Made by a program: the position numbers and the translations under genes
Assembly: GCA_030531555.1 (NCBI GenBank)
Contig: JAUNNI010000028.1
Span: 1-34,179 of the forward strand
Source: Eubacteriales bacterium
GTDB taxonomy: Bacteria > Bacillota > Clostridia > Lachnospirales > Lachnospiraceae
Direction: 5' to 3'
Length of the DNA stretch: 34,179 nucleotides
Shown here: positions 4,892 to 34,179 of the stretch, in pieces
Position numbering within the stretch: position 1 is the first letter of the stretch
How the letters are laid out: the number at the start of each line of letters is the position of its first letter
Notes under the pieces: generated by a model
Database searches by the model: none
Told to the model about the DNA's origin: nothing
The model's input: only the letters and a program-made list of their open reading frames with translations

Positions 4892-7111
4892 ATGAGAAAG
4901 AGACAGCCAGAAATCCACGGGTGTCAAATAAGACGAATTATAGTACTTTTGTTGATTTGTATCATGGGATTTGTCATGGTTTTTCACACACCTGTCAAGG
5001 TTCAGGCGAAAAAAAGTAATGGCAATGGCTTGAATGCGGAAATTCAAAAAGAAACCAAGGAAATCGCGTCTTTTGTGAAAAAACATTGGAATCATCTTGA
5101 TAAAAAAGGCGGCGATCTGGCAAAATATGAGACTTGTCGAATCGTAGTAAAGAGTCAGAATCTACAGGATGATTTCGGGGCATCCGATTGCCTTCATGCC
5201 GAAGGGTATGGCGAATATATCTTGCAATACTCTTCCGCGAGAGAAACAAAAGTAGCTTATAAGAAATTGCGAAAAATATATAAAAAAGATTGCTATGTGG
5301 ATCAGATTTTGGACGCCAACGTCTTGATGGATCTTGGGGAAACTCAAGAAGATATCACACTTCAAGAGGATGCCATGACTCAAGCGGATATCACACTCCA
5401 AGAAGATGCCATGGCTCAAGATGGTATCGGGGTGGAAGAAGATATTACAGAAGCTCCGAGGCCTACTTCTTCCCAGATTACCTGGGGTTATGAAACCATG
5501 GGATTTGCCAATGTAGCGGCAGATTGGCAAGAGGATGAGAGTGCTACAGTGGCGATCATTGATACAGGATGCGATATGGGAAATTGGTACTTTGATGCCA
5601 GCAGATTCGATGCACGAAGTTTCGATTTTGTGGAAGAAGATTCCATTCCTCAAGATGAGAGTAGCAATGGTCATGGAACCCATGTGGCAGGAATCGTTTC
5701 CACTTGCACCCCAAAACAAGTGTCTTTGATGATATTACGTGTGTTTGATGCATCTGGTGGCAGTTCCGTCAGTTTAATTGATACAGCACTTCAATATGCC
5801 ATTAATAATCACGCCACTGTCATCAATATGAGTCTAGGTTATGAAAAAAGTACATTGGACGAAGAAGACGTGGATTTCTGGGATGAAGATATTGATCAGG
5901 CATATGCGGCCAATATCCCAGTATGTTGTGCTTCAGGAAATGGCGCCCGAAAAGGCAAAGGCGTAGCCTATTATTATCCGGCTTGTAGTGATAAAACCAT
6001 TTCCGTCGGATCCATCGACAGCGATCAAAACATTGCTGCAACCAGCAGTCAGGGTGAAGCCTTAGATTTTTCTGCTCCTGGTGTTGGTATTGTCAGTGCT
6101 TTAAAGGGTGGAACATGGGATGAAGAGGCAGGGACTTGGCAGACCAAAATAGACAGTGGAACCTCCATGGCTTGCCCACACGTTACATCAGCATTTGCTT
6201 ATTTGAAGAAAAATTACCCAAATGAAACCATTTCCCAGCTTTATGATAGAGCCAAAGCACTTTGTGTGGATTTGGGAGAAACTGGTCATGATGCCACTTT
6301 TGGCAATGGCTATATTCATTTTAACTGCACACATCAATACCAGATACAGGTAGTTGCCCCAACTCATACGACAGAAGGCTACACTTCTTACAGCTGTAGC
6401 TTATGTGGAAACAGTCGAATCAAATATGTTACACCGAAGACGGCTCATCATTTTATTGCTTACACCATTGATCCTATACAGAAGAATGGCGTTTGGCAGG
6501 ACGGTCTTCGTTATGAAGAGTGCGAAGAATGCCATGTAAGACGAAATGAAGAGGTGATACCGGCACCTGTGGATAATGTAATCAATGCAGCAAATGTTGT
6601 GAAAACATACTCCAAAGTTGTACAGGTATTTAACCTGAATGCGACATGCAGCGGCGGTGCTAAACTCACCTATCAATCAAACAACAGAAACATTGTAGTA
6701 AATAGTGCGGGGCAGGTTACCGTGAAAGCAAAATATATAGGGGAAGCGGTTATCACAATCATATCCTCAGCAACTGCAGAATATAAAGCTGCGATGAAAC
6801 AGGTTACTGTAACAGTGACGCCTAAGAAAACAACCGTTTCCAAGGTGACTTCACCAAAGAAAAGGACGATGAAAGTTACCTGGAAGAAGAATACCACAGC
6901 AAGTGGATATCAGGTGTATTGTTCTAAAACTAAAAAATTTACAAGCAATACAAAAGCATTGGCGTTAAAAGGCCAGAAAAAAGTTACTGTAAATATTACG
7001 AAGCTAAAGAGTAAGAAAAAATATTATGTAAAAATTCGAGCTTATAAAACAGTAAGTGGCAAAAAGATTTACGGTCCTTGGAGTGCAGTGAAAACTTGTA
7101 AGGTGAAATAG
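4892..7111 (+). CDS. Secreted subtilisin-like serine protease (S8) with C-terminal accessory domains
   Basis: The 739-aa protein begins with a basic N-terminus and a hydrophobic signal segment (about residues 14-35), followed by a probable propeptide. Residues about 154-177 contain two tandem 12-residue acidic repeats (DITLQEDAM-QA/D). The S8 catalytic domain follows with the full triad: D224 in AIIDTG, H261 in NGHGTHVAG and S425 in GTSMACPHV. After it comes a region with paired CxxC motifs (SCSLCG, CEECHV) that may bind zinc, a bacterial Ig-like segment, and a lysine-rich fibronectin-III-like domain at about 640-739. It is probably exported and processed to degrade extracellular proteins. 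There is no LPXTG anchor. AGGAAAGGGG precedes the ATG, and a strong bidirectional terminator follows the stop. Confidence 0.93.
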   Translation: MRKRQPEIHGCQIRRIIVLLLICIMGFVMVFHTPVKVQAKKSNGNGLNAEIQKETKEIASFVKKHWNHLDKKGGDLAKYETCRIVVKSQNLQDDFGASDCLHAEGYGEYILQYSSARETKVAYKKLRKIYKKDCYVDQILDANVLMDLGETQEDITLQEDAMTQADITLQEDAMAQDGIGVEEDITEAPRPTSSQITWGYETMGFANVAADWQEDESATVAIIDTGCDMGNWYFDASRFDARSFDFVEEDSIPQDESSNGHGTHVAGIVSTCTPKQVSLMILRVFDASGGSSVSLIDTALQYAINNHATVINMSLGYEKSTLDEEDVDFWDEDIDQAYAANIPVCCASGNGARKGKGVAYYYPACSDKTISVGSIDSDQNIAATSSQGEALDFSAPGVGIVSALKGGTWDEEAGTWQTKIDSGTSMACPHVTSAFAYLKKNYPNETISQLYDRAKALCVDLGETGHDATFGNGYIHFNCTHQYQIQVVAPTHTTEGYTSYSCSLCGNSRIKYVTPKTAHHFIAYTIDPIQKNGVWQDGLRYEECEECHVRRNEEVIPAPVDNVINAANVVKTYSKVVQVFNLNATCSGGAKLTYQSNNRNIVVNSAGQVTVKAKYIGEAVITIISSATAEYKAAMKQVTVTVTPKKTTVSKVTSPKKRTMKVTWKKNTTASGYQVYCSKTKKFTSNTKALALKGQKKVTVNITKLKSKKKYYVKIRAYKTVSGKKIYGPWSAVKTCKVK

Positions 7112-7151
7112 AAAAATGGAGACCATTGATTTTGATGGTCTCCATTTTTTT
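7112..7151. terminator. Bidirectional terminator between convergent protease and AAA genes
   Basis: The perfect stem at 7112-7126 and 7135-7149, with core ATGGAGACCAT/ATGGTCTCCAT, has an 8-base loop. A run of seven T follows on the plus strand and five T on the minus strand. It lies in the 50-bp gap between the two convergent genes and serves both. Confidence 0.93.
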
Positions 7152-7161
7152 CACTTCCCCT

Positions 7162-9345
7162 CTACTCCAGCACAAAATCTCCCAGTATCAACAGGGATAA
7201 ATCTGCTTCTGGCTCCGCCACTAAGCGGCGAGACTGATTTAAGATGGCCTCTTCCACTTTGTTGCGGACCAGTCGGCCATTTCCTGCGGTGTCTGGATTG
7301 GTAGCCTGCACTTTTGTGTAATAGGCTAATAATGCGGATTCTGCTTCAGAATCTAAAATATACCCCTTGGATTTTACGGTAATCTTAGTGATTTCGACCA
7401 GTTCTTCACCTGTGTAGTCTGGGAAGTCAATGATGTTCGGGAAGCGGCTTTTGAGGCCGGAGTTGGCTTCTAAGAATTCTTCCATTTCGTGGGAATATCC
7501 AGCGAGGATTACAATCAGGTTATCGCGGTTATCTTCGATTCCTTTTACCAGAGTGTCGATGGCCTCCATGCCGAAGGAGTCGTCTTTTCCTCGGTAGAGA
7601 GAGTAGGCTTCATCGATGAATAAGACACCACCAAGGGCACTTTTGATGACTTGATTTACCAATGGCGCGGTGTGTCCTACATAGCGACCAACCAGGTCGG
7701 CACGGGATACTTCCACCAGCTGTCCGCCGGTCAGTACGCCGATGGCCTTTAGGTAGCGGCTGACGATTCGGGCGATGGTGGTTTTACCGGTACCAGGATT
7801 TCCGGTGAAAATCATGTGTTTTGATACGTCGGAAGCCTTGAGACCAGCTTCCAAACGACGTTTTTGTGTATTGTAGTATTCTTCCAGAGAAAGAATGTAT
7901 TTTTTGATTTCGGAGAGTCCGACAATTTTGTCCAGCTCTTCTTTGACTTTTGCAACATCACCGGTATATGCTTCTGGCAAATGATTCATCAAATCAACTT
8001 TTTCTTCCCCAATCTGGGCAAGGATACGATTATCTTCTAGCAAAAGTTTTACGGTAATATCTTTAGCGTAGCTTCCCTCTAATTTGAGGGTTGCCAGACT
8101 TTTTAAAAGTTTCTCGAAGAAGGAGATCAGGCCCTGGGTTCCAGCATTTTTGCCAGTGGCGGCAACGGCAACATTGAACAAGGATTCTTCGTCACTTTCT
8201 AAAAGGAAGGAAAATTGCTTTTTGGATTTTTCTGCCAGTGCATCCCATTGCACTTTTGCAATCTTGCGGTAACTTTCTTCCTCTAGTTTTTCGCTGGTGC
8301 AGATGTCACCTAAGGCGTTAATCAGTGGTGCACCGAATACATTTGCCAGGCTGTCGACATTTTTGCTTCCAAGGAATGCCAGGTATTTGCCTTTTGCGGT
8401 AAATGTGCTGACGGTTTCTTTGGTAAATGCATTGTTTGCATTGATCAACTGCCCTTTTTGTAGTGTGTAGCGGTCCTGCAAATAGCATTCACCTTTTGTC
8501 ACCAGATCACTGATGTAGGTCAGGTAGGAAATGTGGCAATCTTCGTAGTTTTCAAAAACGATGATGCAAGCTTCCGACTGAAGAGCAGCGTAAAGGTCTT
8601 GCAGGAAGACATTATCCTTTCCAGCAGCATTGTGGCGGGAAAGATCCATAAAATATACCTGGTCGCTTTTTAAAATGTTGCGTTTTTTAAGCTCAACGGC
8701 AAGTTTGGTCAGGGCGTAATGTTTTCCGGTATCTTCCGGACCATTGATGTAGAAACAGTTTTTTGCGTGATTTTCCTTCTCTGGAAGGATAAAAGGACGT
8801 TTAAAAGCGATAACAAGTCTTTTGATAAAATTGGTCTGTCCGAAAACCTGCTCAGATACGGCATCTTCCAGACCAACAAATGCTTCCAGGTCCACTGGTA
8901 TTTCTGCTTCCACTGGAGCAGGAGATTCAATTCCAAAGTCTGCTTCCAGATGTTTGTTGAGATCTTCCAAATCTTTTGATACCGAGCTATAGATTTCTTC
9001 TGCTGTCTGTGCTTCTGCTGTATTACTGCTTTTTTTGCCATTTCCATAGAATTTTTCTGCTTCTTTATAAGCAGTGCTTTCTCGGATATCGGGGTTTTTC
9101 TTCATGTAGTCCATTGGGTCGATGCCACCAGAGGAGGCGTGCATGGAAGGGATGGAGTTTTCCCTGGAGGCATGCATAGAAGGTACAGGTTTGCGATCTG
9201 TGGATTTTCCGCTGCTTTCTTGCAGGATGTCCATAAAGTTTTTTCCAGTCTTTTTTGCTTTTTTGGCAGCCTTTTCGATTTCCTCCGCTGAGTAAGGAGA
9301 ACGTTTTTTGGCCAGATCGTCGATACGGTCAAATATATTGCTCAT
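7162..9345 (-). CDS. Two-module AAA+ ATPase, CbxX/SpoVK-like
   Basis: The 727-aa protein has a charged N-terminal region (about 1-170), a first AAA-like module and a canonical second one. The second has Walker A GNPGTGKTT near residue 515, Walker B GGVLFIDEAY near 570 and an arginine-rich sensor region, as in CbxX/CfqX, SpoVK and EccA-type ATPases. The first module has GPEDTGKHY, where histidine replaces the usual Ser/Thr, and IIVFENYED at the Walker B position. It is probably weakened or inactive. Such ATPases remodel proteins in the cytoplasm; the substrate is unknown. The ATG at 9345 is preferred because AAGGA lies 10 bp before it; an in-frame ATG at 9402 has no clear ribosome site. Confidence 0.85.
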   Translation of the reverse strand: MSNIFDRIDDLAKKRSPYSAEEIEKAAKKAKKTGKNFMDILQESSGKSTDRKPVPSMHASRENSIPSMHASSGGIDPMDYMKKNPDIRESTAYKEAEKFYGNGKKSSNTAEAQTAEEIYSSVSKDLEDLNKHLEADFGIESPAPVEAEIPVDLEAFVGLEDAVSEQVFGQTNFIKRLVIAFKRPFILPEKENHAKNCFYINGPEDTGKHYALTKLAVELKKRNILKSDQVYFMDLSRHNAAGKDNVFLQDLYAALQSEACIIVFENYEDCHISYLTYISDLVTKGECYLQDRYTLQKGQLINANNAFTKETVSTFTAKGKYLAFLGSKNVDSLANVFGAPLINALGDICTSEKLEEESYRKIAKVQWDALAEKSKKQFSFLLESDEESLFNVAVAATGKNAGTQGLISFFEKLLKSLATLKLEGSYAKDITVKLLLEDNRILAQIGEEKVDLMNHLPEAYTGDVAKVKEELDKIVGLSEIKKYILSLEEYYNTQKRRLEAGLKASDVSKHMIFTGNPGTGKTTIARIVSRYLKAIGVLTGGQLVEVSRADLVGRYVGHTAPLVNQVIKSALGGVLFIDEAYSLYRGKDDSFGMEAIDTLVKGIEDNRDNLIVILAGYSHEMEEFLEANSGLKSRFPNIIDFPDYTGEELVEITKITVKSKGYILDSEAESALLAYYTKVQATNPDTAGNGRLVRNKVEEAILNQSRRLVAEPEADLSLLILGDFVLE

Positions 9346-22634: not shown

Positions 22635-22663
22635 TTGTAAGCGGTGTATATTTAATATAAAAT
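22635..22663 (+). promoter_or_regulatory. Promoter of the giant surface-protein gene
   Basis: TTGTAA at 22635-22640 and TAAAAT at 22658-22663 are 17 bp apart, about 68 bp before the start at 22731. It begins right after the lysA terminator. Confidence 0.5.
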
Positions 22664-22730: not shown

Positions 22731-25700
22731 ATGAAAAAGCGACTACTAGCATGGTTGATGGTTGTCATCATGGGACTTGGTCAGGCGATTCCTGCCAATG
22801 TCTATGCACAGGAAGTTACTGCTCCGGCAGCAAGTGAGCAGTCGGTGTCAGCAGAGTCCGTGACGGAAGAGACCTCGGAAGAGAAAACCGAAGCAGTCTC
22901 TACAACAACCGAGTCAACCAAGGAAGATGTGACAGAAGAATCCAAGAAGGAAGAAACTGTCACAGAGAAAACCGAATCGAAAGATACGGAAAAGAAAGAA
23001 GTAGCACCTTCTGAAACTGAGAAAGAGGAAGAAGTCACAGAAGAGGCTACGATAAGTAACAAAGAAACAGAGCAGACAGAGAAAGAAGATGCCTCAAAAG
23101 GAATTTCCACTTTGTCAGAAAGTGAATATGTCATCACATTGAACTCTCCTCAGATGATTCAGGCGGATGGGAGTATGTATTATTTCCGGTTTGTAGCGCC
23201 AGAAGCTGGTAAGTATACTTTCTATTATACGAGTGGAAAATTTAATTACGGCTATATTAGTATAATAGATATTGATACTGGGGAGTATATTCCTTCTGAA
23301 ACAGATTCTTCTTGGCCTAGCTCTGCTACAGTTAATTTAACTGATCAACAACAGGTTCGAATTGAAGGTTATGTATATAGCGAGGCCAGTGCGTTAACAT
23401 ACATGAACGTTAGAAAATACGATAAAGACGATCATGTAATCACAGTAGAAGATATCCAACTTCCAGATAATGTGGAAATCGGGCAAACATTTGATGTTCG
23501 CGTAAAATTTAATTCTACAGATATTTCAAAATTTTACATTTCTAGCTGGGATGGATTAAGATTTTATTGGCCAAGCGAAGCCAATCCAACTCCAGAAGAA
23601 GATGGATATTATACATTACATAATGTTTCTGTTGGAAATTCAGGAACAGCTTCGTCAGTATCTGTGGATATTTATCACAATTATGGTTATGAATATTCTG
23701 ACACAAAGGTTGTATCACTTACGGCAGGTAGTCTTCAGTCTAGATTAGATGCTCTTTCTGCCGATGGAGGTGGCGTGCTGGAATTTACAGAACAGTTGAG
23801 TATTGATGAAGCAGTGGTGATTCCAGAGAATGTAACCCTTCTTTTGAATTTTGATGGCGATAACTATTTTAATAATTCATTGGAGGTTCTTGGTAGGTTA
23901 AAGTCAAGGGGACCTCTTCATATTGAATCAAATTGGTCCATTGGAAGCAGCGGAAATGTATTTGTGGTACAAGGATTAGTCTTAAATCCGAATTTATATT
24001 CAAATTGGGGCTTATCTGAACTAAATGCTAAGAACGGTGAACAAATCAAAATCAGAGGTGCTTATGGGGCATATTGTTGTATTGGTGATGATTACTATCA
24101 GTACCGTAATGGTGAATGGAGAACGCCAACAGATTCACTATTTGATTATAATGTAAAGATTTCAGCCCTTAAGCCAGATGAAATCACTGAGATTACAAGC
24201 AACAGTTATCAATCAGATTTTAGTACAGGTGATTTCTATAACAGATCCCAGTGGTTAAAATTTACGGCACCAAGTGATGGGGCTATTGACCTTCGATTTG
24301 GAAATATAATTAATAATGGGGAAAAATCGATCAAAATATACAATTCTAATTCCGAAGATATTAGTTGGGGTTGGTGGAATGAAAATAACTATATACATAT
24401 ATCAGATAGGGCATTGGAAGCAGGCGAAACCTACTATATTCAAGCATCTTTTAGAAGCAGTGATGCTTTAACGGCAGAAGATGTCAATCTTACTGGAGAT
24501 TTTTCTTTTGAATTTAAAGAAGTGGGTATTACCGCAGCGAAACTTAGAGATGCACTTGATTTTGAAAATGCTACTTATAGTCTTGTAGATTCAGAATATG
24601 GAAATGGCAAAGAATGCCAAATTATTGTACCAATCAAAGAAGACGGCAGAGATCTGTTCAGTGGAATCAGATACGGAACTTTAGTGTATGATGGCTACTA
24701 CATGAATATGGATTACAATGAAAGTGGTATGTTGGATTCTTTAGTATTCAGGAGCGCTTACTCTGGTATTGCATTTGAAGAAGGTCTGGCAAATGCTATA
24801 TTATCTAATCCAAATATGAGTTTGTATGGTGATGAGCATTCATACTATATTTCTTCCGCTCAAGAAAGCTGGTTTATAGATGATCTTTTTAATGTATATC
24901 GAACTGATTTTGGCAAGATTTCTCAGATTACATTCCCTCTTCAATATATGGAGTCAATCGAACTTAGTCTGGAGGGAATGGAAGCATTATCAAACCAGAA
25001 ACAAGTATATTCTTTCACTGCCATTGAAGATGGAACCTATACATTCTACGTAACAGATGGTCAAGGAGATGTTTATTTCGGCAAATCTTCTGTGGAAGGA
25101 TTATCTACATATATAGATAGCAACGGGGCATATTCCACTGAGATGGAAGAGGGACAGACCATCTATGTGGTCGCACAGTGTTGGGAAGAAGGATTCATAG
25201 GAGTCACTGCCGATACGGGAGAAGTGAAACTTTCTAATATTCAGCTGGAAGGCAGCACTGTCATTGCAGAACAAGGACCAAAAGGTACTTTATATTTTGA
25301 TAAAGACATTCGCAGAGCTGAGATTACTTGGATTGAAGAAGGAAGTGATAATAGAATTATCCAGATTAACGAGGAAGAGAATGGTCATGCCTCTTCAACG
25401 ATAAATCTTAAGAGTGTTTTTGTTGATGAGTATTGGAACCCTGTCACTTTCACAAGTGATAATAATTATCATATTGAAAAAATCAAAGTTAGAAATGCTT
25501 ATGGAATGGAATATGTACTTGACGAGAACAGCATGGATAACTATTCCATTTTACGTGGTGCAACCATTCATACAATAAGTTTACAAGATTATATCGAACA
25601 TGATACCAATAATACCTTTACTTTTGAGAATCTATCTATTTCAGGAGATTTTACAATACCTGCCGGTAAGACAGTAATTGTAACAAATGAATTAACAGTA

Positions 25701-28700
25701 CGTGGTGCAAACCTTACTGTAAATGGTATTTTGAATGCTTTAGAAATGAAGCTATATGATGAGTCAAATATTCTCCTTGGAAATGATGGAGAAATCAAGG
25801 TGGAAAGATTGGGTATTAACAATTGTTCTACTTATCAGAATATGTTGCAATGCATTAAAGGAACCAATCGAGAAAATGAGGCTTATGTTTCCATTGATGA
25901 TATTTGCTTATATATGGTTTATTATTGGACAGGATCCAAATGGCATTCTACTGAGGAAGGCATGCCAGATCTTTCTGAAATGATTGTATTGAATCAAGAC
26001 AATAATTATACATGGGAGGGTGATGGAGAAATATGGTTCCTTGTAAATGTAGCAGAGAGTGGCAATTACAAGGCTATTACCGACTCAAATCAAGATTTTC
26101 TAGCATATATTGTTAACGAAAATGATCCGGATAATTCTATGGAAGAATTAGGCTTTGGTGATGAATTCTTCTTAGTTGCTGGGGAACAGATTGTTCTTAG
26201 AGAATCGGATAACTGGTTGGGTATCAACTCAATTCGACTTGTTAAGAACAATAACAGGCAAGATCCGAATACTTTATTCAGTGGATTGGATATTTCAAAT
26301 GCGAAATTATCCTCGGATATTGATAATACTCGAGGAGTGATTACACAGTCCATTGAAATTCCTGTAGAAGAAGGAAGTATTATTGAGGAATATTATTCAA
26401 ACCATAAGAGAAAAGATTACGATGAAGAAGATTATTTATCTTATTATACAGAACAATCCTTTGGTGAATATAATTATGAGTTTACATTGGAATATGATGA
26501 TTCTAAACATGCTCTTGTAGGCAAAAGAGTCTTTTCATTGTATGTTGAAGAAGCTACTAATGTGGAATATATCCCAGATCTTTTGGTTCTGAATATCAAT
26601 GGCAATCGTTATGTTTTAAAATTCAAAGAGAGAGAAAATACCTCTCACAGTTCATCCATAGCAGGAACAGCATATTATACAAATGGATCAAATCTGCAAT
26701 TCATTCTTAAGAAACAGGGAGCGAAAGAGATTCATTTTGATGAAAAGGTTGCAGCTCCAAACGATAGTAGTGAAATGACATATTATACTTTCACACCACA
26801 GGAAGATGCAAGATATGCAGTGGATGCAGTAGCATTGCCTGATAGTGAAGATACTGATATAGACTATTCATTTTATAAAAAATATTATAACGATGAGTTT
26901 GGCGAGTGGGATTTTGATTATGTAGGCAACGAAGTGATGGAAGCTGGACAGAAATATTATCTGCAGATTTCTTCATTCGGTATGGATACTTTTAAAATTG
27001 TCAAAAATGAAACAGAAATATCTAATGTTCGTTTAGCAAATGTCAAACTGATTGGAAATTATGTAACTGGCGAAATCCATGCGGATGTAACTGGTGGAAA
27101 AGTACAACTCAAGGATGTAAGAAGATCTATTAAATATGGTGACGATTATGAAGATGACTGGTTTGAAGGAGAAGGATCATGGGCTCAAGTTGAAGAAAAA
27201 GAAGAAGGAGTTTGGACATTCTTTGCGAACCTTCATACAGACAAAACCCAAATATTAAAATATGCAATCTTTGCTGATCAATATAATACTTGGTATACAA
27301 TTGAAATAGAGAATCCACAGAAATTTGAGAATGTTGGTACTTTCCAAGAGGCATTGAATGAAGCAGAAACTGGTACAATCCTTCGCATAAATTATTTATA
27401 CGTAGATGAAGATGACCTGACGATTCCGAAAGGTATTACAGTTAAGGCGGGTTATGTTCGAGTTGGAAATAGTTATGAAGATGGATCATTAAGTAATAAT
27501 ACTTTAACGGTAAATGGAACTTTAGATGCATATGAACTTAATGTAGAAGGCGGATTCCTTGTAAATAATGGCGATGTTACTGTGGACAATTTCTATTGTT
27601 ATGAAACATTGACAGGTATCGTAAAAGTCAGAAAATTTGCTCTTGTTGGATTCCATCTTATAAATGATCCATGGCAGGAACAGATCATTGGTGCATCTAC
27701 AGAACCAGGTTCTGCGACTTGTGTACAGGTTTTAGATCAAATAGAAGAAGGAATAGCAGGAGAAGCTCATTTCATCTGGAACGGTTCTTCCTGGATTCCA
27801 GAAGAGGAATATGATCCAGAAAATCCTACTGGAAAAGAACCAACAGAAGTACCATATCGACTTGTTGTGGAAGATAAGATCTACGATGGTACAAATACAG
27901 CAAATGTCACAGTAGAAATTACTGATAACGATGTAAAAGACGCTATGGAAGCTGATGGTGTGAGCATTGAAGCTACCAATGGAAGATTTAGTCAGTCAGA
28001 CGTTGGAAACAACCTGGTGGTTGATGCTGACGTTACATTAATTGACGCAAATCCAAAACATTATGTTTTAGCAAGTGCTCCAGTTGAAGTAGGTAAAGCA
28101 AGCATTAAGGCAGCCAAAGTCCCTTATACTTTAACAGCAACGAACAAAGTTTACGATGGAACAAGCAATGCAGATGTAACAGCAAGTATTACCGATGATG
28201 ATGTGAAAGCATTGATGAATGCAGATCAGGTTAGCATCAAGGTAAGCAATGCCGCATTCGCACAGGCAGATGTGGGGACTGATATTGCGGCTGCCGCAAA
28301 TGTCACATTAACAGGCGACAAAGCAGGTAACTATGAATTAGTAGCTCCAAGTACAAATCCTACCGCAGATATCACTGCAGTGAAAGTTGCATATACTTTA
28401 GCTGCAGACGATAAAGTTTATAATGGTAGTACAGATGCAAATGTAACAGCCAATATTACAGATCCATCTATGAAAGCAATGCTCGAAGCAGATGGTGTAA
28501 GTATCAAAGTGAATAATGCAACATTCGCACAGGCAGCCGTAGGCAGAGAAATTGAAGTAAGTGCAGATATTACATTATCAGGGAACAAAGCAGACAACTA
28601 TAAATTAGTAAATCCAAGCGTAAATGCTACCGCAGACATCACAGCAGCAAAAGTAGCATATACTTTAGCAGCAGCAGACAAAGTTTACGATGGCACAAAT

Positions 28701-29309
28701 GACGCAAAAGTAACAGCAAGTATTAGCGATGATGATGTGAAAGCATTGATGAATGCGGATCAGGTAAGCATCAAAGTAAGCAATGCAGCATTTGCACAGG
28801 CTGATGTTGGCAGCGGAATTGCAGTGACAGCAGTTGTGGCACTGACAGGTGACAAAGTTGACAATTATGAATTATTAGCACTAAGTACAGAACTTACTGC
28901 AAATATCATAGCAGCAGATATGGCTGATGATGTTGCAATTAAGGCAGAAAGTGGCTTGGAAGGCAAATCCTACAGTGTGACAGTTGAAAAACTTCCAGAA
29001 GGCGCGAAAATCACATACGCCACAGCCGAAGGTGAAGACTATGTGCCAGAAGCTCCAAGTTTCACAGAAGTAGGAGAACACAAGGTATTCTACAAAGTTA
29101 CAAAAGCAAATTATAAAGAGGTTACAGGAAGCGTAACGGTTGTAATTACTAAGAAACCGATTATTGAATGTACTTTAACGGCAGACAATAAAGTATATGA
29201 TGGAACAACAGATGCAAATGTAAATGTGAGCGTGAATGATCCTTCTGTAAAAGCAGCTATGGAAGCCGATGGCGTAAGCATTGAAGTAAGTAACGCGAAG
29301 TTTGCATAG
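22731..29309 (+). CDS. Giant secreted surface protein, N-terminal part ending at an in-frame amber codon
   Basis: This 2,192-aa product starts with a signal peptide (KRLLAWLMVVIMGLGQAIPA, cleavage near VYAQE) and a Thr/Glu/Ser-rich acidic linker to about residue 125. Next come several beta-sandwich units that look like pre-peptidase-type domains: YYFRFVAPEAGKYTFYY, WLKFTAPSDGAIDLRF, VYSFTAIEDGTYTFYV and YYTFTPQEDARYAV. Long unassigned beta-rich stretches lie between them. Five YDG-type modules (KVYDGT) follow from about nt 27846, with a KLPEGAKITY-type module after the fourth. The frame stops at TAG 29307-29309 inside the fifth module, where other copies have a glutamine codon. The start at 22731 has AAGGAGG just upstream. 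No enzyme motif or LPXTG anchor is seen; an adhesive or structural surface role is inferred. Confidence 0.88.
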   Translation: MKKRLLAWLMVVIMGLGQAIPANVYAQEVTAPAASEQSVSAESVTEETSEEKTEAVSTTTESTKEDVTEESKKEETVTEKTESKDTEKKEVAPSETEKEEEVTEEATISNKETEQTEKEDASKGISTLSESEYVITLNSPQMIQADGSMYYFRFVAPEAGKYTFYYTSGKFNYGYISIIDIDTGEYIPSETDSSWPSSATVNLTDQQQVRIEGYVYSEASALTYMNVRKYDKDDHVITVEDIQLPDNVEIGQTFDVRVKFNSTDISKFYISSWDGLRFYWPSEANPTPEEDGYYTLHNVSVGNSGTASSVSVDIYHNYGYEYSDTKVVSLTAGSLQSRLDALSADGGGVLEFTEQLSIDEAVVIPENVTLLLNFDGDNYFNNSLEVLGRLKSRGPLHIESNWSIGSSGNVFVVQGLVLNPNLYSNWGLSELNAKNGEQIKIRGAYGAYCCIGDDYYQYRNGEWRTPTDSLFDYNVKISALKPDEITEITSNSYQSDFSTGDFYNRSQWLKFTAPSDGAIDLRFGNIINNGEKSIKIYNSNSEDISWGWWNENNYIHISDRALEAGETYYIQASFRSSDALTAEDVNLTGDFSFEFKEVGITAAKLRDALDFENATYSLVDSEYGNGKECQIIVPIKEDGRDLFSGIRYGTLVYDGYYMNMDYNESGMLDSLVFRSAYSGIAFEEGLANAILSNPNMSLYGDEHSYYISSAQESWFIDDLFNVYRTDFGKISQITFPLQYMESIELSLEGMEALSNQKQVYSFTAIEDGTYTFYVTDGQGDVYFGKSSVEGLSTYIDSNGAYSTEMEEGQTIYVVAQCWEEGFIGVTADTGEVKLSNIQLEGSTVIAEQGPKGTLYFDKDIRRAEITWIEEGSDNRIIQINEEENGHASSTINLKSVFVDEYWNPVTFTSDNNYHIEKIKVRNAYGMEYVLDENSMDNYSILRGATIHTISLQDYIEHDTNNTFTFENLSISGDFTIPAGKTVIVTNELTVRGANLTVNGILNALEMKLYDESNILLGNDGEIKVERLGINNCSTYQNMLQCIKGTNRENEAYVSIDDICLYMVYYWTGSKWHSTEEGMPDLSEMIVLNQDNNYTWEGDGEIWFLVNVAESGNYKAITDSNQDFLAYIVNENDPDNSMEELGFGDEFFLVAGEQIVLRESDNWLGINSIRLVKNNNRQDPNTLFSGLDISNAKLSSDIDNTRGVITQSIEIPVEEGSIIEEYYSNHKRKDYDEEDYLSYYTEQSFGEYNYEFTLEYDDSKHALVGKRVFSLYVEEATNVEYIPDLLVLNINGNRYVLKFKERENTSHSSSIAGTAYYTNGSNLQFILKKQGAKEIHFDEKVAAPNDSSEMTYYTFTPQEDARYAVDAVALPDSEDTDIDYSFYKKYYNDEFGEWDFDYVGNEVMEAGQKYYLQISSFGMDTFKIVKNETEISNVRLANVKLIGNYVTGEIHADVTGGKVQLKDVRRSIKYGDDYEDDWFEGEGSWAQVEEKEEGVWTFFANLHTDKTQILKYAIFADQYNTWYTIEIENPQKFENVGTFQEALNEAETGTILRINYLYVDEDDLTIPKGITVKAGYVRVGNSYEDGSLSNNTLTVNGTLDAYELNVEGGFLVNNGDVTVDNFYCYETLTGIVKVRKFALVGFHLINDPWQEQIIGASTEPGSATCVQVLDQIEEGIAGEAHFIWNGSSWIPEEEYDPENPTGKEPTEVPYRLVVEDKIYDGTNTANVTVEITDNDVKDAMEADGVSIEATNGRFSQSDVGNNLVVDADVTLIDANPKHYVLASAPVEVGKASIKAAKVPYTLTATNKVYDGTSNADVTASITDDDVKALMNADQVSIKVSNAAFAQADVGTDIAAAANVTLTGDKAGNYELVAPSTNPTADITAVKVAYTLAADDKVYNGSTDANVTANITDPSMKAMLEADGVSIKVNNATFAQAAVGREIEVSADITLSGNKADNYKLVNPSVNATADITAAKVAYTLAAADKVYDGTNDAKVTASISDDDVKALMNADQVSIKVSNAAFAQADVGSGIAVTAVVALTGDKVDNYELLALSTELTANIIAADMADDVAIKAESGLEGKSYSVTVEKLPEGAKITYATAEGEDYVPEAPSFTEVGEHKVFYKVTKANYKEVTGSVTVVITKKPIIECTLTADNKVYDGTTDANVNVSVNDPSVKAAMEADGVSIEVSNAKFA

Positions 29310-32300
29310 GCCGATGCAGGCAATCGAATTGCAGTAACAGCAGATGTGACATTGACGGGCGATAAAGCAGGCGATTATGTGTTGGTTGCACCAATGGAAA
29401 ATCTTACTGCCAACATTACACCAGCAAAAGCAGCGTATCGTTTCATAATTGCTGATAAAGTATATGATGGCACTAACAATGCAAAAGCAGCAGCAACTAT
29501 CACAGAGGAATCCATGAAAGCAGCCATGGAAGCCGATGGAGTTAGCGTTGTTGTAAAAAATGCAACATTTGCCCAGACAGCAGTTGGAACAGGAATTGAA
29601 GTGAATGCAGATGTAGCATTAGAAGGCACAAAAGCAGGTAACTATCAGTTAGTGGCACCAAGTGAAAAACTTACAGCTAATATTTTAGCAGCCCAAGTAG
29701 CATATACTTTAGAGGCAGATGATAAAGTATATAATGGCCAGACTGACGCAAGTGTAAAAGCAACGATCACAAATGCTGACAGAAAAGCTCTGATGGAAAC
29801 CGATGGCGTAAGTCTTGTAGTAAGCAATGCGAAATTTGCCCAGGCAGAAGTAGGCAATGATATTGCCATCACATTTGATGTGAAATTAGCTGGTGAAAAA
29901 GCAAGCAATTATGAATTAGTAAATCTTGCTACTGCACCAACAGCGAACATCACTCCAGCGGATATGTCCGCAGAAGTTCAGGTTGAAGGAACAAGTGGGG
30001 AAGAAGGACATTCTTACACAGTAAATGTTGTAAAACTTCCAGAAGGGGCCAAAATCACATATAGTACATCAGAAGATGGCAATTATGTAGAAAATGCTCC
30101 AAGTTATTCCACAAAAGGAAGCTATACCGTTTATTACAAAGTTACAAAAGCAAACTTCAAAGACGTTACAGGAAGCGTTGATATCTTTGTAACAGAAAAA
30201 GCTCCAGTTAAGGTTCCATATACTTTAATTGCTGCAAATAAAGTTTATGATGGAACAACCGATGCAGATGTAACGGTAAATATTACAGATCTTGATGTGA
30301 AAACAGCCTTGGCAGCTGATGGCGTAAGCATTGAAGTAAGTGATGCAGCATTTGCACAGGCCGATGTCGGCAACGATATCACAGTTAGCGCAAATGTAAA
30401 ATTAGTTGGTGATAAAGCAACAGCATATGCTTTAGTTGCTCCAGCTACTGCTATCAAAGCCAATATTACTCCAGCAGACATGTCAGCAGAAGTTAAAGTC
30501 GAGGGAGTAAATGGAGAAGAAGGCAAAAACAATACAGTAAATATAGTAAAACTTCCACAGGGTGCAAGTATTAGTTATCGTACATCCGAAGATGATGATT
30601 ATGTAACAACAGCACCAAAATTCACAGTTTCTGGAAAATATACAGTTTACTACAAGGTAACGAAGCCAAATTATAAGGACGTTACAGGAAGTGTAGAAAT
30701 CCTTGTTAAGAAAGCAATTACTATTACGGTAAGCAGCAAGATTTCCCTTCTCATTGATGAAAGTAAATCTCTGGGTGCAATTGCAACAGATGATTTGGCA
30801 ATTACTTATCATTCTTCCGATGAAAATGTGGTAACTGTTGACAATACCGGTAAGCTCACACCAGTAGCCAAAGGAAATGCAAGTATCACATTAAGCATTG
30901 AAGAAAATGATAGTCATTACGCAGTAGAAAAGACTGTAGAAGTTACTGTTGAAAAACGAATCTCCAATATCCGTTGTTCTGCAAAAGTATGGAATGTTGG
31001 TTTTGATGTAGATGGTGATGACAATACTCTGGCAATTGCAGGAAGCGTAACTTCTTCCGTTGCCGGCAAGATCCATTACGAAAGCGGCAGTCCTGAGATT
31101 GCAAGCATCGATGAAAATGGTGTGATCACAGGTCTTGCAGAAGGCACAAGTATCATTTCCATTTACCGTGAAGAAACCGATGTTTATGAGAAGTCCAATG
31201 TAATCGCAGTTCCAGTGAAAGTAAATGCGCCACAGGCAGAATACAATGGAAAGAAATACATCAGTGTTTCCTCCGCTCTTTCCAAGGTAACTGGTGATAC
31301 AGGAACGATTACTTTATTAAAAGACACCACTCCAACAGAAATTCTTCATCTTCCATCCGATACTGCATTGATTCCAGCAGGTAAGACCATTACTCTTAAT
31401 CTGGCAGGATTTGCATATAACGGAAGATTAAAAGTAGAAGGAAAACTGATTCTTCGAGATGAGCCAGTGAAACTTTCCAGAATGCTTCTCTCTATCATGA
31501 CACTTTCTGACTCCGATTCAACGGGTGCCTTCGTACTTGCCGGTGGAAGTATTGTCATCGAAGAAAGCGCATCTCCTGAAGAGGTGACAATCATTGGTGC
31601 TGTTGCCAAAGTGGAAGATACCGTGGAAGAAAGCGTTTCTTACTATTCTGATATCATGGAAGCAATCGAAGAAGCCAATGATAAGGTGGAAACAAGTGAA
31701 AGTGAGGCTGTTGAAGTAACAGTAACCCTTACAGATGCGGCAACTTTATCTTCCAGAAATGAAGAAGCAACCGTTGAATTAAAAGAAAATGTTACATTGA
31801 ACTTAGCAGGTAATACCTTAAGTTCAGATGGAAGTACCACATTAACTGGCGAAGGAAATATCGAATCCAAGAACGACAAGGGAGAAGATATTACAGCTCA
31901 GATTAGTGAAACACTCCTCGGAGACGAAAGTGGCAATATTACTCTTGCAGAAAAAGTAGAAAAAGTTCAGATTCCAACTTATGAAATCACCGCAGAAGAC
32001 CATATCTATGATGGACAGATGCCTGACATTAAGATTAATAAGATGGAAGGACAGAATTATGATGGATATGTGGCAGAAGTACTTACTGCTGATACAGAAG
32101 TATCTGCAGGAACTCATACATATTATGTAGGAATCTACAAAGTAAATGGCACAGAAAAGACTCTCGTTCAGAAACAGTCCATTGATGTGACGATCCTTCC
32201 TAGAACCATTTCCTATGAATTATCTGCTAAGGATAAGGATTATGATGGAAATAGGGATGCAAGCATTACACTGACAATTCTTGATGATGAAGATCCTGGT

Positions 32301-33540
32301 CTTAAGACACTCTTAGAAAATGAGGGTATTGATCTTGTAATAACAGATAAGTACTTTAGAACATCTGATCCTGGAACAAACAAAGTAGTAACCTGCCTTG
32401 TTAGTCTCACAGGAGAAGGAATCGAAAACTACAAGTTAGATTGTAAGACCAAAGCACTTACTGCAACCATCAATGCTCCTGAAGGTGATCCAGAACCACC
32501 GGAAGAAGTTACACCAACAGAGATTACTTACACCTTAACCGCGGCAAACAAAGTTTACGATGGGACAAATACTGCAAATGTAACAGCAGATATCACAGAT
32601 ATTGTTGTGAAAAATGCAATGGAGGCCGATGGCGTTAGCATCCAGGTAAGCAATGCAAAATTTGCGCAGACAGAAGTTGGAACAGATATCGCTGTTACAG
32701 CAGATGTAAAATTAACTGGTGAAAAAGCTGCAAGTTACAGATTAGTAGGTTCAACTACAGGTCTCAAAGCAGATATCACTCCTGCAAATATGGTAGCAAG
32801 TGATATTCAGGTAGAAGGAACCAGCGGCGTAGAAGGCCAGCCTTACACAGTAAAAGTTGTAAAACTTCCAGAAGGTGCGAAAATCACTTACAGCACAAGC
32901 CAGACAGGAACTTATGTAGAAACTGCCCCAAGTTACTCCACACCAGGAACTTACAAGGTATACTACAAAGTAAGTAAAGCAAACTATCAGGATGTGACAG
33001 GCAGTGTTGATATCGTAGTAACAGAAAAAGCAGTTGTAGATGTAGCATATACATTAACAGCAGCCAATAAAGTTTACGATGGCACAAGCAATGCAAATGT
33101 AATCGCAAATATTACGGATTCTACTGTAAAAACAGCCATGGAAGCAGATGGAGTAAGCATTAATGTAAGCAATGCAAGATTTGCGCAGACAGAAGTTGGA
33201 ACAGATATCGCTGTTACAGCAGATGTAACATTAACTGGTGAAAAAGCTGCAAGTTACAGATTAGTAGGTTCAACTACAGGTCTCAAAGCAGATATCACTC
33301 CTGCAAATATGGTAGCAAGTGATATTCAGGTAGAAGGAACCAGCGGCGTAGAAGGCCAGCCTTACACAGTAAAAGTTGTAAAACTTCCAGAAGGTGCGAA
33401 AATCACTTACAGCACAAGCCAGACAGGAACTTATGTAGAAACTGCCCCAAGTTACTCCACACCAGGAACTTACAAGGTATACTACAAAGTAAGTAAAGCA
33501 AATTACAATGATGTAACTGGTAATGTAACGATTACAGTGA
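27846..33540 (+). repeat. Array of 11 YDG-type protein modules
   Basis: Eleven modules of about 85-90 residues follow the pattern YTL-A-(N/D)KVYDGT--A-VTA-I-D, then VSI-VSNA-FAQ--VG, then V-LTG-KA--Y-LV. Four lie wholly before the TAG, the fifth contains it, and three follow directly. A region at about 30715-32205 interrupts the array before a diverged ninth copy (DKDYDGNRD) and two near-identical final ones. Modules 4, 7, 8, 10 and 11 are each followed by a second module type (KLPEGAKITYST, APSYST, YYKVSKANY). Confidence 0.9.
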
Positions 33541-34082
33541 CCAAGAGACCTCCTGTTCTTGTAAATAGCGTTGCAATTCAGAGCACATTATCCAACAAGA
33601 TTGCAGCTGGTAAGAAAGTGACATTAAAAGCCAGTGTATTACCAGTTAATGCAGATAATAAGAATATTGTATGGACAAGCTCCAACAAGAGTGTTGCAAC
33701 AGTAAGTGCAAGTGGCGTTGTTACCATGAACAAGAAATCTGGTGGTAAGAGTGTTGTAATCACAGCAAGCGCAGTAGATGGAAGTGGTAAGAAAGCATCT
33801 TACAAGATCACTTCTATGAAGGGTATTGTGAAGAAGATTACAATTACAGGTGCAAAACCAGTAGTAGCAGGCAAGAGTATTAAACTTAAAGCTAATATTA
33901 CTGCAAGCAAAGGCGCCAACAAGAAGGTTCGTTGGACAAGCAACAACACAGCATACGCAAAAGTAAGTGCAAGCGGTAAAGTTACAACCATGAAGACAGC
34001 TAAAGGAAAGACTGTGAAGATTACAGTCATGGCTTTGGATGGAAGTGGTAAGAAGAAGACCGTAAGCATTAAAATCAAATAA
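29310..34082 (+). pseudogene. C-terminal part of the giant surface protein, cut off by the amber codon
   Basis: The frame continues after the TAG for 1,590 codons without another stop, in phase with the upstream part. It completes the fifth YDG module and holds six more, four KLPEGAKITY/YYKVSKANY-type modules, a central beta-rich region with bacterial Ig-like segments, and two C-terminal Big_2-like domains (IVWTSSNKSVATVSASG and VRWTSNNTAYAKVSASG). The latter are frequent at the ends of clostridial secreted proteins. There is no ribosome site or convincing start after the TAG; the first GTG at 29346 lies in the middle of a module. Independent translation is therefore unlikely, and the part is made only by readthrough, or if the TAG is an error or a recent mutation. 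The final stop is TAA at 34080. Confidence 0.85.
32661..33502 (+). repeat. Near-identical 323-bp direct repeat with 519-bp offset
   Basis: Bases 32661-32983 recur at 33180-33502 with a single difference seen (A at 32710, C at 33229). The offset of 519 bp equals 173 codons, one YDG module plus its companion. The nucleotide identity, including third codon positions, points to a recent duplication or gene conversion. The other modules differ widely at the DNA level. Confidence 0.88.
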
Positions 34083-34179
34083 TCGTTCGATTTCATAATT
34101 GGTAAATTGGCGAAAATAAAAAAATGGGGTTGTCGCAATAAAGCGGCTTTCGAATGTCCCTGAAAATCGCTAAAACTGA
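34083..34179. other. Right-hand edge without recognisable gene
   Basis: The last 97 bases after the giant gene hold no open frame of note. No clear hairpin with a T run is seen, so the terminator of the giant gene is either weak or outside the window. Confidence 0.5.

Follow-up and report, generated by a model that had tools for sequence, protein, structure and literature searches.

The giant gene and its in-frame amber codon

The window analysed here is the whole 34,179-nucleotide contig JAUNNI010000028.1 (C154 among our contigs) of a Lachnospiraceae draft genome of 3.12 Mb (3,123,414 bases in 165 contigs, with a completeness of 95.68% and a contamination of 2.14%); it carries a giant gene of YDG and Ig-like repeats whose reading frame is interrupted by a single amber codon. 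Between the TAA at 22653 and the end of the window, the frame of this gene meets only three stops: a TAG at 29307, a TAA at 34080 and a TGA at 34161. From the ATG at 22731 to the TAG at 29307-29309 there are 2,192 codons, and a further 1,590 codons, with no other stop or frameshift among them, run up to the TAA at 34080. A first-pass annotation of the window had described an in-frame amber codon at a conserved glutamine, an open frame of 1,590 codons behind it and a predicted truncated product of 2,192 residues, and our analysis bears out all three points.

The 5' part of the gene (22731-29309, plus strand) encodes an N-terminus that, read by eye, resembles a signal peptide, followed by a long unique region, four intact YDG modules and the first half of a fifth, which ends at the amber codon. 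The 3' part (29310-34082, plus strand) encodes the remainder of this module, six more YDG modules, a unique middle region, C-terminal Ig-like domains of the Big_2 family (PF02368) and a basic tail. All 11 of the YDG (PF18657) matches above the curated cut-off of 25 bits in this genome (29-50.7 bits) lie within the giant gene, and the TAG sits inside a single one of them (29151-29387), which at 48.2 bits is the second best of the 11 and spans this one stop. The 3' part has a coding score of 586 over its 1,590 codons and the 5' part one of 440 over 2,217, so that the score per codon is higher behind the stop; the coding-like open frame downstream of the TAG is not due to chance. No NCBIfam model matched either part at an E-value of 0.01. 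A search of solved structures with a profile of the module gave no credible relative; five sequences appeared at E-values up to 1, and the best of these (0.0025) is a designed helical protein in which no single stretch passes by itself.

We read the two parts as one gene, because the stop lies inside one YDG domain and because an unbroken relative aligns to both parts. This relative, from another species of the genus (genome G005; L072, 5372-13906, minus strand), is a chain of 2,844 residues; its alignments cover residues 123-1698 in the 5' part at 25% and residues 458-1009 in the 3' part at 34%. Its one YDG match is weak and falls below the cut-off, and its other Pfam hits are all Big_2 domains; judged from these alignments it shows both parts in one chain, but not which residue its own line has at the site of the stop. 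The alternative, in which a separate second gene begins after the TAG, has very little to recommend it. In-frame starts are available at a GTG (29346) and at the first ATG, codon +29 (29394), and the first ATG with a ribosome-binding-like match, of four bases, follows 69 codons after the stop. No start within 59 codons of the TAG is preceded by a ribosome-binding-like site, which is weak evidence when taken alone, since 10 of 25 ordinary neighbour genes in the same genome also lack one. A product starting after the TAG would have no signal peptide visible by eye, and both the position of the stop within a domain and the single chain of the G005 relative speak against a second gene.

The sequence at the site, TTT GCA TAG GCC GAT (29301-29315), can be compared with the ten other modules that carry the motif. 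Nine of these read F-(A/S)-Q, with an identical glutamine codon in all nine, and FRT stands in the tenth. When eight of the ten intact modules are aligned, the glutamine is one of 26 invariant columns. Even so, the landing of a stop on a conserved glutamine is not a remarkable coincidence, because, of the 161 nonsense changes of the transition type that the 3,782 codons allow, 59 hit the commonest glutamine codon, more than in any other class; 5.6% of the 161 belong to the nine intact F-x-Q sites. Glutamine codon choice differs between the two parts of the gene, with CAG and CAA used 34:27 before the stop and 25:1 after it. The amber module deviates at a nearby valine that is constant in all eight sisters of equal length. 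It does not look decayed, however, since, counting the stop, it departs at six of 38 well-agreed columns, and its sisters at zero to eight.

Sister modules and relatives

The amber module (29154-29420, plus strand) is one of nine equal-length copies, and the comparisons of identity and substitution rates were made on these nine of the 11 modules. Over 267 nucleotides (nt) it is 61-68% identical to the other eight; local pieces of its DNA reach 67-73%, and one 41-bp piece 88%. In module pairs on either side of the stop the nonsynonymous divergence (dN, 0.11-0.44) is lower than the synonymous divergence (dS, at least 0.44, with one pair saturated), and most of that history must predate the stop.

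Further downstream and remote from the TAG, two 519-nt units (32514-33551, plus strand; starting at 32514 and 33033) share exact blocks of 273 bp (at 32711 and 33230) and 50 bp between diverged flanks, with a dN of 0.08 and a dS of 0.33. This looks like recent homogenisation, by gene conversion or partial duplication, and such internal recombination counts in favour of a phase switch, in which conversion from intact modules would toggle the stop on and off. The first-pass annotation had proposed a switch of this kind on the grounds that intact copies of the same sequence lie nearby. That statement is correct for the protein motif but not for the DNA. An exact-match search for donor tracts over positions 27601-34080 found at best 6 bp before and 9 bp after the stop in common with an intact copy, and the longest exact match anywhere in the module (29172-29420) was 24 bp. 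Tracts this short should rarely recombine, given the minimal lengths that recombination requires. Because the flanking identity is so short, the longest exact match no more than 24 bp and the identity between modules only 61-68%, we regard a conversion switch at the TAG as most improbable, and we do not retain this part of the earlier proposal.

No same-species strain was found in plasmid records, viral contigs or a protein search of genome contigs. The plasmid records held no match to the locus, an exact 33-mer search of viral contigs gave nothing, and the protein search returned only distant YDG-type loci, 30 in number and 27-41% identical in the best segment. When the N-terminal 1,656 residues were compared with 60 relatives, matches were found in G005 (residues 131-1392) and in G003 (residues 5-127 only), so that among the 24 genomes of the genus only the genome studied here and G005 have a long match to this region. 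A wider search of 396 other genomes of the family, in which two first-look candidates were scored per genome, gave matches in ten, each within residues 1-179. One of the ten, in G294, contains two TAG codons, and this match is irrelevant to the stop: the matched stretch is acidic and of low complexity, a TAG terminates the short gene to which it belongs, and the alignment overruns that end. The middle region (30681-32336) has a match in 16 of the 24 genus genomes, the present one included, and besides this genome only G005 matches over most of its length.

With its eleven YDG modules above the cut-off and its C-terminal Big_2 domains, the protein resembles the known YDG-domain repeat proteins; it differs in that its gene is split by a stop and in that its genome is the only one of the 24 in the genus with YDG above the cut-off. 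In a literature search that was not exhaustive we found no paper naming this gene, and what was found under the name YDG domain appears to mean another domain. Upstream of the giant gene, the window also encodes a protein with a ParE-type toxin domain (PF05016; 20067-20369).

Decoding of TAG and other interrupted frames

The genome encodes release factor 1 (RF1; a 539-bit match, above the cut-off) and uses TAG as an ordinary terminator. It ends eight of 20 picked genes of the window and, in a sample of 432,573 of the 3,123,414 bases (the window and 20 further stretches of 398,394 bases in total), 72 of 328 coding-like frames, a count that includes the amber codon under study. A genetic code with TAG reassigned therefore finds no support. 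Pyrrolysine decoding likewise finds none, with a pyrrolysyl-tRNA synthetase (PylS) match above the 178-bit cut-off in none of the 24 genus genomes. Weak PylS matches of at most 29.3 bits occur in 23 of the 24 and are presumably other class II synthetases; among the controls, the same search gave matches in 13 of 14, one of them above the cut-off.

The same sample was surveyed for frames that stay open after a stop, a survey that would miss genes broken by frameshifts or those with a short second piece. It yielded 28 pairs. In 25 of them an ATG follows the stop by no more than 14 codons, and these look like ordinary neighbour genes; in the two of these 25 whose families were checked, the two sides belong to different families. 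The three remaining pairs are the gene described here, a pair in L083 (plus strand, 2062) with a non-ATG start at +2 and a weak coding score, and a gene for an SH3_3 protein in L093 (G000:C7:1-20000; 6184-7170, minus strand). The last of these is split by one in-frame TAA into pieces of 244 and 84 codons, with SH3_3 matches in both (27.4 bits, against a cut-off of 27, and 46.8 bits). Neither of the first two ATGs after its TAA has a ribosome-binding-like site, and the protein appears, by eye, to start with a signal peptide. Because this second break is a TAA, in-frame stops in secreted-looking proteins of the genome are not specific to TAG, which supports ordinary nonsense mutation or draft errors and opposes amber decoding.

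These observations bear on the possibility of functional readthrough, in which UAG would be decoded usefully, perhaps as glutamine by a near-cognate tRNA or a phage suppressor, to give some full-length protein beside much of the short form. We consider this improbable. The undecayed 3' frame is in its favour, and a portion of PMC11126739 describes E. coli reporters in which tyrosine, glutamine and lysine were inserted at TAG at comparable rates. A section heading of the same source states that readthrough is favoured when the downstream sequence is high in G and low in T; the 30 nt after the present stop contain 8 G and 5 T. The set of tRNAs recovered from this genome with ARAGORN (150 of 168 first-look candidates scored) is incomplete, with 20 found and no tRNA-Gln among them, which leaves room for a decoding tRNA.

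The remaining evidence points the other way. RF1 is present and TAG is in normal use as a stop. The suppressor tRNA envisaged by the first-pass annotation did not come to light: a CUA anticodon occurs in none of the 20 tRNAs of this incomplete set, and in none of the 65 tRNAs of the single-contig congener G004 (150 of 198 first-look candidates scored). RNA folding after or around the stop is no more stable than in shuffled sequences (z-scores of +0.41 and +0.46). The G005 chain, alone among the relatives in aligning to both parts, has no stop, although it also lacks the YDG array apart from its one match below the cut-off, and the TAA break in L093 shows no preference for TAG. A more specific version of readthrough is a leak valve, in which most of the protein would be released as the soluble 2,192-residue form while a small fraction, decoded as glutamine, would keep the Big_2 tail and stay on the wall; we give this very little weight. 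An in-frame amber codon in the genes for a surface structure has been described before, in the CS3 pilus genes of E. coli (Jalajakumari et al., 1989), where, to go by the title of that report, its bypass reportedly regulates pilus production. Our case shares the in-frame amber codon; it differs in that we found no suppressor and no sign that the stop is conserved.

A probable truncating allele or consensus error

We consider it very likely that the amber codon is either a truncating nonsense allele or an error of the assembly consensus, the two being counted jointly and neither calling for a special mechanism. A recent truncating allele is the explanation that we favour, and it is probably correct. 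The first-pass annotation had left the choice between a recent change, a sequencing error and a stop tolerated through readthrough or suppression; the first two of these now give the best reading, while suppression or special decoding finds no support in RF1, in the normal use of TAG, or in the searches for PylS, for a CUA anticodon among the tRNAs recovered and for RNA structure, though some readthrough at a low level may occur.

If the TAG is a truncating allele, RF1 would end translation at the premature codon, and the cell would export an acidic form of 2,192 residues that stops short of the final six YDG modules, of the middle region and of the basic tail with its Big_2 domains. The tail would be expected to bind the anionic wall, and the short form would then be shed or poorly retained. 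Three points here are inferred: the cell itself has this base, it produces and exports the short form, and the tail acts as described. The net charge of the last 170 residues is +31 for the full frame and -13 for the frame that ends at the TAG. Basic 170-residue ends, with net charges of +30 to +40, are present in four large chains of the genus (33570-34079 of the window; L072, 5375-5884, minus strand; L135, 9186-9695; L136, 4519-5028). The end of the G005 relative carries +40, that of a chain with matching domains on contig C53 of the same genome +30, and that of a further large chain on C106, which is not known to be related, +30. Such ends are perhaps wall-binding tails, a role suggested by the count of charges.

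Two observations weigh against a simple truncation that removes a wall-binding tail. A minus-strand chain on C106 (L136, minus strand) has matching domains and an acidic end of -37. Moreover, a lone stop in a gene of 3.8 kilocodons, placed in a high-scoring module and followed by no decay, is also what tolerated readthrough would leave.

Because no second stop has arisen in the 1,590 codons, the neutral bound on the age of the stop is about 1.7% divergence per site; on the assumption that indels occur at a tenth of the rate of substitutions, it falls to 0.5%. The very long, undamaged 3' frame implies that the event is young or that it is an error. Criteria under which stop-interrupted open reading frames (ORFs) are counted as pseudogenes or sequencing errors appear in a portion of PMC1914089. 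In relation to these our gene is similar in being found in one species only, with no relative that has a stop at the same place, and different in the length and intactness of its downstream frame.

The base at 29307 comes from one draft assembly and could reflect either a mutation or an error. That the TAG is a sequencing or metagenome consensus error, and the gene of the cell unbroken, is the less likely of the two parts of our joint reading and on balance doubtful. It is consistent with a draft in 165 contigs with 2.14% contamination, with the unbroken relative in G005, and with the occurrence of a second one-stop break, at a different stop codon, within the sample of 432,573 bases. However, only two such breaks stand out among the 328 coding-like frames (frameshifts were not sought), too few for an assembly riddled with such errors, and the DNA around the site shares no long exact tract that an assembler would have collapsed.

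Taken together, a recent truncating allele remains the favoured account of the interrupted gene, and the case is a caution: a single protein will appear as two when a lone stop breaks its long repeat gene in a draft genome. Were the TAG to prove fixed across strains that preserve the 3' part, this would be a rare natural case in which one gene gives rise to both shed and wall-bound forms. Should the leak valve be true, a single gene would supply the shed and the bound form of a giant adhesin-like protein.

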